A stretch of 32,704 nucleotides of DNA, taken from positions 1-32,704 of the forward strand of contig JAGWLV010000005.1 in NCBI GenBank assembly GCA_028864875.1. Direction: 5' to 3'. The translations under genes and the position numbers were made by a program. A model generated the notes under the pieces. It saw only the letters and a list, made by a program, of their open reading frames with translations. It was not told the origin of the DNA and did not search any database. Below are positions 5,549-12,946 of the stretch, one piece after another. Every line of letters begins with the position of its first letter. Positions within the stretch are counted from its first letter, which is position 1. The DNA comes from Patescibacteria group bacterium (GTDB taxonomy: Bacteria; Patescibacteriota; Minisyncoccia; Phycocordibacterales; SBAW01).

Positions 5549-6082
5549 ATGGAGCAAGATATCGAACAAAAAATAATGACCCGGATGGCACAGCTTCCGC
5601 AAAACGTGCGCGACGCTATCGCCTCGGCCGACATGAGCACAAAAATCCGGGAGATAGGTACACGCAACCGCCTCCACATCGACCAAATAGGGGAGCTGGA
5701 GGATGAAGTGCTCATGGTCATGCTCGGCTTCACGCCGCTAGACACCTTCCCCGCGCACTTGAGCGAGAAGCTCAACACCCCCAAAGAGATGAGCGAAACG
5801 CTCGCCAAAGAACTCAACGACACCGTCTTCCTGCCCATCCGGGAAAATATGAAGAAGCCGGCAGAAGGCGCTGCACCCACGGAGCCCCTCAACGCGACTC
5901 CGCAGGAGGCAGTGAGGAGCGGAGTGGGTGCAGCGCCCGTAGCCCCCACGCCCAAAGTGGCCATTGTGGGGCCCACAACCGCACTCCCCAAAGCACCCGC
6001 CTCGCCGCTCGCACAAGAAATGCTTACGCAGAAGACTGCCACATACGCGACTGACCCGTATCGCGAGCCCGTCGAGCCGTAG
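5549..6082 (+). CDS. Hypothetical protein (177 aa), soluble, within T4SS-like locus
   Basis: Intact ORF MEQDIEQKIMTRMAQLPQNVRDAIASADMSTKIREIGTRNRLHIDQIGELEDEV...; TGATAGCAT extended -10-like motif 6 nt before ATG. Confidence 0.75.
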   Translation: MEQDIEQKIMTRMAQLPQNVRDAIASADMSTKIREIGTRNRLHIDQIGELEDEVLMVMLGFTPLDTFPAHLSEKLNTPKEMSETLAKELNDTVFLPIRENMKKPAEGAAPTEPLNATPQEAVRSGVGAAPVAPTPKVAIVGPTTALPKAPASPLAQEMLTQKTATYATDPYREPVEP

Positions 6083-6100
6083 CATCGACTTTCACACTTT

Positions 6101-6121
6101 GTTTCCGCCTACGGCGGAAAC
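6101..6121. terminator. 9-bp hairpin GTTTCCGCC-TAC-GGCGGAAAC between two T4SS-like genes
   Basis: Perfect 9-bp stem, 3-nt loop; lies just upstream of TATAAT at 6128-6133. No U-run follows, so terminator function is not certain. Confidence 0.5.
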
Positions 6122-6141
6122 GCCCTGTATAATTTAGGGTG

Positions 6142-6564
6142 ATGCAGTACCAAGTCCCTCAATTTATAGAAGTAGAGGACAAGATCTTCGGACCGCTCAC
6201 GCTCAAGCAGTTTATCTATCTCGCGGGCGGGGGAGGGTTGCTGCTGCTGTTTTTTACCCTCCTGCCATTCTATCTGACGGTTATTTTGGGGATACCGGTC
6301 ATAGCGTTTGCGCTCGCGCTCGCCTTCTACCAGGTCAACGGCCGCCCGTTTATTGTGGCGCTCGAGCACGCTATCTCCTACACGCTCGGCAACAAGCTCT
6401 ACCTCTGGAAGCAGCGCGAGCAGAAGGCCACACAAGCGGCTCAGGCGCCCGCCCCGCTCACCCAGCTTGTGCCGCGGCTCTCGCAGAGCAAGCTGCGCGA
6501 CCTTTCATGGTCGCTCAATATCAAAGACCAAGAAAACCGGTCACGCGGCGGGCTCGCTATTTGA
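6142..6564 (+). CDS. PrgI-family protein
   Basis: MQYQVPQFIEVEDKIFGPLTLKQFIYLAGGGGLLLLFFTLLPFYLTVILGIPVIAFALALAFYQVNGRPF: characteristic PrgI N-terminus plus two TMs. GTG 6139 is an alternative start. Confidence 0.88.
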   Translation: MQYQVPQFIEVEDKIFGPLTLKQFIYLAGGGGLLLLFFTLLPFYLTVILGIPVIAFALALAFYQVNGRPFIVALEHAISYTLGNKLYLWKQREQKATQAAQAPAPLTQLVPRLSQSKLRDLSWSLNIKDQENRSRGGLAI

Positions 6565-10456: not shown

Positions 10457-11190
10457 AAAAATTTCTCCCACTTCTTATAGCGCTCCCGTTGCTTATTCCG
10501 CTTTCGGCAAGCGCCGACGCATGCACGGGCTTCACCTGCCCAAGCGGCACATCATGTGTTGTGCTCGACAATTCAGCATTTTGCCAATCATCAACCGCCC
10601 CTTCTACGCCCGCGAGCACAAACATTACTATTTATAAAGCAAGCGGCAATGGCACCACCCCTCTCAACACCAACAACTGCCAGGGGGGCACGTGCACCTA
10701 CACGGCGCTCGAGCCGCTGCCCGGCGCACCCGCGCAATACTCCTCGGCCGCCGAGTATCTCTCCTTTGCCTTCAAGTGGGGAGTGATAGTGATGGCGATA
10801 TTTGCGGTCGTCATGCTCGCGGTCTCCGGCGTGCGGATTTATCTCTCGAGCACGTCTATCACGAGCCACGACAAGGCGTGGGCGCGTGTACGCTCGGTAT
10901 TTTGGGGCCTCGCTATCGCGGTGACACCCTTCATCGTTCTCTACACTATCAACCCCTCCATACTTTCCTTCAACCAGGCGCTCGGTTCGCCGAGCGGAAC
11001 TACGGTGGGGCAACCTGCATCCGGGGGGCAGAGTTCCAGCAACAACACAACTCCCACGAACAATACTGTGAATGTCCCCGCCGGTTCGCTCCCGACCCAA
11101 CAACAACAGGACGCCTGCAAGGGGACTATCCGCGTGACCGGCTCCGACCAAAACAACAACCCCATCTTTATGTGTGTCACTTCAAACTGA
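10453..11190 (+). CDS. VirB2/pilin-like two-TM protein with Cys-rich N-terminal segment
   Basis: Start ATG 10453 overlaps upstream TGA (ATGA). Signal peptide, CTGFTCPSGTSCVVLDNSAFC, then TMs YLSFAFKWGVIVMAIFAVVMLAVSGVRIYL and VFWGLAIAVTPFIVLYTI. Confidence 0.68.
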   Translation: MKKFLPLLIALPLLIPLSASADACTGFTCPSGTSCVVLDNSAFCQSSTAPSTPASTNITIYKASGNGTTPLNTNNCQGGTCTYTALEPLPGAPAQYSSAAEYLSFAFKWGVIVMAIFAVVMLAVSGVRIYLSSTSITSHDKAWARVRSVFWGLAIAVTPFIVLYTINPSILSFNQALGSPSGTTVGQPASGGQSSSNNTTPTNNTVNVPAGSLPTQQQQDACKGTIRVTGSDQNNNPIFMCVTSN

Positions 11191-11191
11191 T

Positions 11192-12400
11192 ATGAACCGC
11201 ATCCCGACATATGTTTGGTGGATACTCGGCGCCGTCGTCGTCGGCGCGGCCGTGCTGCTCGGCGTACTATCCTCGATGGGCCGCTCTTCACCCGCGCAAC
11301 AACAGAATTCCTCCTTCGGCAGCGGCGCCCAAAGCGGCGGCACCGTGGGCACGGTCAACGAGCAGCCGGGGAGTGCCAACATCCCCACTGCGTCCAACTC
11401 AACCGACAGGATATTCAAACTCAGCGGCGGACCGGTCGCCGCGGTTGTGTCGATAGAAACGCTCCATCCTACAACAACACTCGCGCGCTTTGTGATGCAA
11501 GACAGCGGCCACGTATTTGATCTCATGCTCGACTCCCAAGGCGCGCTCCCCAAGGCGGTATCGAACACCACTATCCCGGGCATTGAGCGCGCGCTGTTTG
11601 CGCACGGCGGCACGCAGGCACTGCTCCAGTACTTCGACGGCGGTACCATCAAAACGGTCTCGGTCGGGCTCGCCATCCCGGGTGCCACAACGAGCGCGCC
11701 CACCAGGCTCCAGTTCCTCCCCGACAATGTGCTTGATGTGGCACTTTCGCCCTCCGGAGTGCAAGCCGCCTACCTGCTGCGCACAAATGCGGGCGCGGAC
11801 GGCTACATTGCAAACTACGACGGCACCTCGCCCAAAAAACTCTTCTCGCTCCCGCTCACGCAAGTACTCCTTTCTTGGCCCGCAGCGGGCACGCTGCTCG
11901 TGGGCACGAACTCAGCGGCCGGAGTGCCGGGGATGCTCTTCTCCGTCGATGCCAAAGCGGGCACCGTGCGCTCGCTGTTGTACGCGCCGGGGCTCACGGG
12001 GGCGGGGGCGCCGGATTTCAGCGAGGTCGTGTACCAAACAGACGCCGGCGGCGGCCCCATCACCTATGCGCACAACACTAAAACAGGCCGCGACACCGAG
12101 CTTTCCTTCGACCCCTCGCCCGAGCGGTGCGTGTGGAGCCCCGCCAACACACTCTGGTGCGCGGCGGCGCTCACCTATACTACGGGGAGCTTCCTCGACC
12201 TTTGGCACATCGGGCTCATCGCGCCCATGGACTCGATTGTCTCCTACGATGTGTCGATGCGCACAACACTCACCACGCCCGGCAAAGACGGCGGCGACCC
12301 GGCAAGTATCGCGTCGGTGGCGCTCTCACCGGACGGGCGATATCTTCTCTACATAACAAGCGGCGACCGCGCGCTGTGGGCGGTGCGTATAACACAATAA
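11192..12400 (+). CDS. Single-pass membrane protein with beta-propeller (TolB/WD40-like) ectodomain
   Basis: N-terminal TM (YVWWILGAVVVGAAVLLGVL); repeated blade-like segments ending ...SVALSPDGRYLLYITSGDRALWAVRI. Confidence 0.65.
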   Translation: MNRIPTYVWWILGAVVVGAAVLLGVLSSMGRSSPAQQQNSSFGSGAQSGGTVGTVNEQPGSANIPTASNSTDRIFKLSGGPVAAVVSIETLHPTTTLARFVMQDSGHVFDLMLDSQGALPKAVSNTTIPGIERALFAHGGTQALLQYFDGGTIKTVSVGLAIPGATTSAPTRLQFLPDNVLDVALSPSGVQAAYLLRTNAGADGYIANYDGTSPKKLFSLPLTQVLLSWPAAGTLLVGTNSAAGVPGMLFSVDAKAGTVRSLLYAPGLTGAGAPDFSEVVYQTDAGGGPITYAHNTKTGRDTELSFDPSPERCVWSPANTLWCAAALTYTTGSFLDLWHIGLIAPMDSIVSYDVSMRTTLTTPGKDGGDPASIASVALSPDGRYLLYITSGDRALWAVRITQ

Positions 12401-12404
12401 CGAA

Positions 12405-12503
12405 GCAAAAGTAGGTACGAAGGGGCTTCGCAGGCGCGACTGGCGCCGAGACTGAGCAAATTTTCAGCAGAAAATTATGCGTACCCTGAGTGCCTACTTT
12501 TGC
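12405..12503. repeat. Multibranched inverted-repeat element (14-bp outer stem enclosing three hairpins)
   Basis: GCAAAAGTAGGTAC 12405-12418 vs GTGCCTACTTTTGC 12490-12503 (one U-G in plus-strand RNA); inner GAAG/CTTC, GGCGC(GACTG)GCGCC 12433-12447, AATTTTC(AGCA)GAAAATT 12459-12476. Confidence 0.75.
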
Positions 12504-12946
12504 GTAGTGTATTTCAAAACAATGTGGCGGAACTTGCCTTCGCCGCGGCTCTCGGTCGCAATTTCTGGGTCCTCCGCAAACAACTCGTGCACGACAAGGC
12601 GCTCGTAGGCGCTCTGGGGCGGCATCTCCACCTCGTGTTTAAACAGCCGCGCGCGCTGTGCCAACATGCGCGCGCTTTGACGCAGCACTTCGAGCTTCTT
12701 TTCCTGATACCCGTTGATGTCGACGATGAAGTTCGCCGCCTCTTCGCCGTGCTTAAGTTCAACAAGCTTGCGTGCAAGCAGATTGAGCGCGCGCAGCGCC
12801 TCGCCGCCCGCGCCGATGAGCCGCTCGGCTGAAGTTGTTGAAACATCAACAACGGTGCGCTTATCGGCGCGCACAGAAACTTCCGCCTCCTCGCCCATCG
12901 ACGAGAGGAGCCGCTCGATACAGGTCTTGAGCGCGCCGGGGTCCAT
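12494..12946 (-). CDS. jag: KH-R3H domain RNA-binding protein (Jag/KhpB)
   Basis: KH-type segment (AERLIGAGGEALRALNLLARKLVE) and R3H-type segment (MPPQSAYERLVVHELFAEDPEIATESRGEGKFRHIVL); next to yidC. Confidence 0.9.
   Translation of the reverse strand: MDPGALKTCIERLLSSMGEEAEVSVRADKRTVVDVSTTSAERLIGAGGEALRALNLLARKLVELKHGEEAANFIVDINGYQEKKLEVLRQSARMLAQRARLFKHEVEMPPQSAYERLVVHELFAEDPEIATESRGEGKFRHIVLKYTTQK

Follow-up and report, generated by a model that had tools for sequence, protein, structure and literature searches.

Group IIC introns target terminators, and bcr1 is a palindromic MITE-like repeat of about 100-150 bp with a transcribable fold, no ORF and family-wide arms. CGTC-tagged REPs carry stems of 8-9 bp, loops of 4-5 nt and a terminal CGTC tag (PMC3733652). 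Together with the Rickettsia palindromic elements they are the nearest published kind to the repeat reported here, with which they have in common that they are short dispersed palindromes, have no dedicated transposase and are reported to vary in number between related species (PMC3733652). The GTAG REP/BIME sequences that go with RAYT proteins resemble it in being intergenic hairpins for which a folded single strand is proposed as the mobilised form.

The repeat lies in the window, a stretch of 32,704 nucleotides from a Patescibacteria genome. Patescibacteria genomes are very small, yet some devote tens of sites to this folded element, and relatives of it follow many of their tRNA genes. In the papers searched on structured RNAs or dispersed palindromes of Parcubacteria/Patescibacteria we found no description of it, and this family of ~100-letter strand-specific folded repeats, spread through many tiny genomes, is apparently undescribed. 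Our preferred reading, to which we give a probability of about 0.6, is that the window copy belongs to a palindromic element of Patescibacteria that is dispersed, non-autonomous and probably mobile, and that may here serve as a bidirectional terminator.

The window copy folds into a closed three-way junction

On the plus strand, positions 12405-12503 fold at −47.7 kcal/mol (z = −6.4), a value reached by 0 shuffles; the minus strand (−38.8 kcal/mol, z = −4.7) is also stable beyond shuffles, less so than the plus strand. The first-pass annotation had drawn a 14-bp closing stem with one U-G pair around three hairpins. The closing stem was borne out: GCAAAAGTAGGTAC (12405-12418) pairs with GTGCCTACTTTTGC (12490-12503) over 14 pairs, one of them U-G. 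Beyond these pairs GA stands opposite GA and the stem resumes as AGGG/CCCT, and the inverted repeat reaches 12400-12424/12484-12508 at 80%. The parts of the element and the genes that it adjoins are as follows.

11174..12400, plus strand: convergent ORF of 408 aa without Pfam match; its stop lies 4 nt before the element, and orthologues end S-LWGVR
12405..12418, plus strand: P1b, 5′ arm of the long closing stem, 14 pairs with 12490-12503; sequence unrelated in most other copies
12419..12420, plus strand: GA of the tandem GA/GA interrupting P1; GA/GA 10 versus TC/TC 0 among type-A copies (12 versus 0 in another count)
12421..12424, plus strand: P1a, inner closing stem, 5′ strand (AGGG); run of at least 4 pairs in 54/58 copies, versus 53% in shuffles
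12428..12429, plus strand: P2, 5′ strand, pairing with 12450-12451; CG, UA, AU or GC across copies
12430..12432, plus strand: GCA, forming one side of an internal loop (G[G/C]A opposite GA); kept in alignment A2
12433..12447, plus strand: P3 hairpin, GGCGC-GACTG-GCGCC; 4/4 modelled pairs changed on both sides
12448..12451, plus strand: GA on the other side of that loop, followed by P2, 3′ strand; from alignment A2 and covariation
12456..12480, plus strand: P4 hairpin, GCA-AATTTTC-AGCA-GAAAATT-(bulged A)-TGC; 10/10 pairs changed on both sides in a sequence set mostly not picked by the P4 motif
12484..12487, plus strand: P1a, 3′ strand (CCCT), pairing with 12421-12424
12488..12489, plus strand: second GA of the tandem GA/GA, from the same count against TC/TC
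12490..12503, plus strand: P1b, 3′ arm, overlapping the last codons and stop of jag
12494..12946, minus strand: jag/khpB (R3H and KH domains; Pfam R3H 4.7e-13, KH_2 1.3e-4), with its stop codon inside the element

The second and third hairpins of the annotation, P3 and P4, proved real and covarying. The first, GAAG-GGG-CTTC, did not hold: a 4-bp version is present in 7/58 copies versus 8% in shuffles, and its plus-strand bases form P1a instead. The two compete, and P1a replaces this hairpin in the fold. The family fold is a three-way junction core, made of P2/P3 and of P4 with its bulged A and conserved AGCA loop, closed by the long P1; the unit spans P1 end to P1 end, about 100 bp.

The core covaries and the plus strand is the one that folds

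All 16 core pairs are changed on both sides among 94 model matches (92 distinct), most of which come from loci not chosen by the P4 motif. Doubly changed cells at core pairs number 312 versus 72, and the covariation score is 0.607 against 0.174 ± 0.009 when shuffled and at most 0.100 when slid. Pairing is seen in 98.4% of core cells, a fraction inflated by the fitting of the 94-match alignment to the model; in the independent MAFFT alignment A2, covariation was 0.219 versus 0.090. P2 varies between CG, UA, AU and GC, and P3 and P4 vary throughout. The AGCA loop is kept across copies, as is the internal loop on its GA side.

Mismatches discriminate between the two strands. Isolated non-Watson-Crick pairs in P1 are G-U in 24 cases versus A-C in 6 (p = 0.0014), tandem mismatches in P1 are GA/GA in 10 versus TC/TC in 0 (p = 0.002), and in the core G-U outnumbers A-C by 25 to 5. 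The folding molecule is therefore the core-sense (plus) single strand, an asymmetry that fits RNA and ssDNA alike.

Copies are dispersed through Patescibacteria

Another copy exists in the genome of the window (588,602 bases in 57 contigs), at C39:12956-13042; over positions 14-98 its identity is 93%. A third candidate, C49:3219-3279, is weak with an unconvincing fold and was excluded from the counts. By DNA search, 81/99 relatives gave a match at E ≤ 10, the matches clustering in the core, away from the outer arms. With a covariance model of the core (R1), copies were found in 74/99 relatives at E ≤ 0.1, in numbers from 0 to about 50 per genome; for the genus of the window the range is 0 to 32. 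Of 287 genomes sampled across the phylum, 29 had an R1 match at E ≤ 0.001, and some of these belong to other classes. The exact core motif occurs at 73 loci or contigs of the GTDB collection; every named one is from Patescibacteria (some titles say only ‘bacterium’), and they cover Kaiserbacteria, Nomurabacteria, Adlerbacteria, Taylorbacteria, Zambryskibacteria, Azambacteria and Wildermuthbacteria besides unnamed MAGs. Nested and tandem copies exist. Matches in viral contigs were limited to two, both confined to the P4 hairpin, and a viral origin was rejected. Among distant genomes (G169 and G358, loci L222-L229) a subfamily has conserved outer ends, AGCGAGG...CCGAGCG, which yield a second tandem GA/GA in the stem.

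Membership of the window copy in a dispersed family is near certain. The annotation had offered a dispersed repeat among its options and had named the absence of covariation and of further copies as refuting; since both are abundant, that option was right and the fold is under selection. In Rfam 15 the window gave 0 matches at E ≤ 10, and at the loci of other copies Rfam returned only tRNA, RNase P and weak sub-threshold matches.

Placement was scored for 56 type-A copies whose stem is clear: 32 have a stop as the closer gene boundary and 16 a start (p = 0.03), 24 copies lying within 10 nt of a stop and 11 within 10 nt of a start. In one genome, G066, copies in tandem gene pairs are mostly sense (12 versus 2); outside it, copies take varied orientations to genes, 19 being antisense, 12 sense, 10 convergent and 9 divergent.

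The outer stem is private to most copies

P1 is a terminal inverted repeat of 10-39 paired bases (median 19), as MITEs have, and its sequence is private to most copies. Four copies in GWA1_40_21 share their arms with an identity of 0.95; there the whole unit, P1 end to P1 end, is shared between unrelated flanks, and no target-site duplication was seen by eye. Three copies in MGR_bin410 do not share arms (0.58 versus 0.62 shuffled). A third copy of the P1 arms near type-A copies showed no excess over controls, which confines the support for target-templated stems to the tRNA and rplK copies described below. Over 39 copies the arms are A-rich in 5′ and T-rich in 3′. In the genus of the window, most copies have a T-run where the outer 3′ arm ends; outside this genus, just 18-22/56 stems have a T-rich end, and the T-run is not general in the whole set.

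The unit was gained at the jag junction

As annotated, the right arm of the element overlaps the 3′ end of jag, whose minus-strand stop codon occupies 12494-12496; the C-terminal codons CAA AAG TAG sit in this arm. The tail of jag differs from relative to relative, so the present tail and stop probably came from the element. The 408-aa ORF, with its C-terminus LWGVR, is conserved and convergent with jag across the genus, and a neighbour ending in LWGVR is present in most of the 28 loci where jag was read.

In 23 relatives the orthologous neighbour is present without the element, and there the two stops lie −17 to 43 nt apart. The distance is 93 nt for the window. It is 112 nt for G029, a relative whose jag junction also carries a copy, in the same orientation; the perfect 24-bp stem of that copy is unrelated. 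The added length is essentially the element, and the P1 arms therefore arrived with it. The window copy was thus gained at the jag junction as a unit overlapping the last jag codons. Nearly every syntenic relative lacks the unit there.

Relatives at tRNA, tmRNA and rplK genes repeat the gene end

Of the 48 model matches in G066, 15 are found no more than 350 nt downstream of a same-strand tRNA or tmRNA gene, where 0.5 would be expected at random. Starting from the 3′ part of the tRNA (X), the order at these copies runs through a terminator hairpin, inverted X and the core to X again. On contig C7 of this genome (loci L181-L214), tRNA and tmRNA genes are followed, past the terminator, by an element relative with a stem copying the 3′ part of its own tRNA; examples are L199:8706-8900, L192:3344-3520 and 6039-6260, L202:575-776(-) and L195:7183-7731(-). 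The 3′ end is repeated downstream over at least 12 nt directly in 14/40 tRNAs, inverted in 11/40 and upstream in 0. These copies lie 12-333 bp downstream of their own tRNA, leaving aside matches to other tRNA genes and their flanks, and apart from the latter there are no distant copies of tRNA 3′ ends.

The same X, inverted X, core and X order is found after the stop codon of rplK (L11), where a relative of the element repeats the gene end in several genera (L052, L063, L083, L090, L092, L096, L105), L090 having two tandem units. Two near-identical head-to-tail units follow tRNA-Arg in another class of the phylum (L234, G295:C43:8729-9330). Nested arrangements were also observed, with a tRNA-type copy within the P3 loop of a type-A copy (L196:10850-11000 and L212:8111-8179(-)). 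The annotation's tRNA-like fold does not apply in the window, though paralogous copies adjoin tRNA genes.

Discussion

Copy number that varies widely and a unit missing from nearly all syntenic jag junctions make mobility likely. The core would be recognised single-stranded, as ssDNA or RNA, by a putative factor, which would let the unit be inserted or copied beside gene 3′ ends; the element would thus move in trans via a folded single strand, transposition itself not having been observed. The P1 arms would be kept complementary, or re-made by hairpin-templated (template-switch) synthesis, giving each copy a near-perfect private stem. At the jag junction the A-rich/T-rich stem may now act as a bidirectional intrinsic terminator between genes whose stops would otherwise nearly touch. 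Counting against mobility, no target-site duplication was visible by eye in the GWA1_40_21 copies, and a single old copy that other relatives lost could be the ancestor of those at both occupied jag junctions.

A cellular RNA function is the main rival, and the conserved covarying core could equally reflect it: as a structured 3′ mRNA element or small RNA, the junction would be bound by a conserved protein or ligand and the copies would stabilise or regulate transcripts. Strong covariation, G-U tolerance, tandem GA/GA motifs typical of RNA, proximity to gene 3′ ends and the sense bias in G066 all fit. Set against them are the mixed orientation elsewhere, a copy number of 0 in many relatives, tRNA-linked copies that lie past the terminator and a window in which no promoter-like site was found, and we consider this rival rather unlikely. 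The plain mRNA 3′ element suggested at first has lost ground because copies stand in both orientations to genes. It is doubtful, if a serious possibility, that the element is essentially a decorated bidirectional intrinsic terminator with P1 as its stem and the core as a loop insertion. The pair AAAAGTAGG...CCTACTTTT in the window, the A6/T6 flanks in G029, the A-rich and T-rich arms and the adjoining stop codons are what such a terminator would show, but the window tail is short (TTTTGC), a terminator scan gives just a minor match inside the element, many copies elsewhere are without a T-run and the conservation of the core is left unexplained. The remark of the first-pass annotation that the fold is more elaborate than a terminator requires was apt, the core being a conserved junction. 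With only 18-22/56 stems T-rich at their end outside the window's genus, a terminator role is not general.

The partner enzymes searched for were of the Y1 and RT families, and neither yielded a partner. Mobilisation as a GTAG REP by RAYT (Y1) transposases, which small dispersed intergenic hairpins bring to mind, was rejected as barely credible: Y1 genes do not track copy number, G014, G058, G050 and G053 having 7-34 copies and no Y1 gene and G033 nine Y1 genes and no copy, and no conserved GTAG was found beside P3 or P4 in alignments A1 and A2. The window genome does have two adjacent Y1 (RAYT-like) genes, at G000:C45:865-1820, unlinked to the element. A SINE-like retroposon, copied by reverse transcriptase or tRNA-primed synthesis, would account for the RNA-like fold and for stems copying the 3′ part of the adjacent tRNA; it is highly improbable, RT genes being without correlation to copy number and the copy-rich G066, G028 and G051 having no RVT_1 gene. 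The chance of an accidental palindrome is negligible, refuted by the z-score of −6.4, hundreds of homologues and covariation, its sole plea being that short repeats are common.

A variant of the preferred reading, a mobile dispersed element, is that in this phylum-wide family only the junction core is inherited, templated synthesis building the closing stem anew from local sequence at each site. Its clearest case comes from the copies at tRNA and rplK genes, which, with X, inverted X, core and X again, suggest stems templated locally; the window copy offers no such evidence, and as a general account we hold the variant unlikely. If true, stem re-making would give bacterial repeats a way of spreading that has not been described among the REP, MITE or intron families. 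The family is a testable entry to repeat spread in host-dependent cells without a resident transposase, and also to transcript ending between tightly packed convergent genes.

Several described systems share single features with the element. It differs from group IIC introns in having no intron RNA domain in the Rfam scans and in needing no reverse transcriptase, and from GTAG REP/BIME in having neither the GTAG tag nor an association with Y1. Whereas CGTC REPs are single stem-loops, it is a three-way junction of ~60 nt that a long private stem closes. Its only CGTC is the complement of the P3 loop (GACG), with no 8-9 bp stem-loop ending in CGTC. In the window's genus it resembles intrinsic terminators by its long A-rich/T-rich stem after stop codons, and departs from them by its conserved covarying junction and by a T-run that is not general. 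Like the ERIC/IRU and Correia elements (PMC2229807), it is palindromic, of ~100-150 bp, with a transcribable fold and no ORF. Their arms are family-wide, whereas here the arms are private to most copies and it is the core that is conserved; no target duplication was seen.
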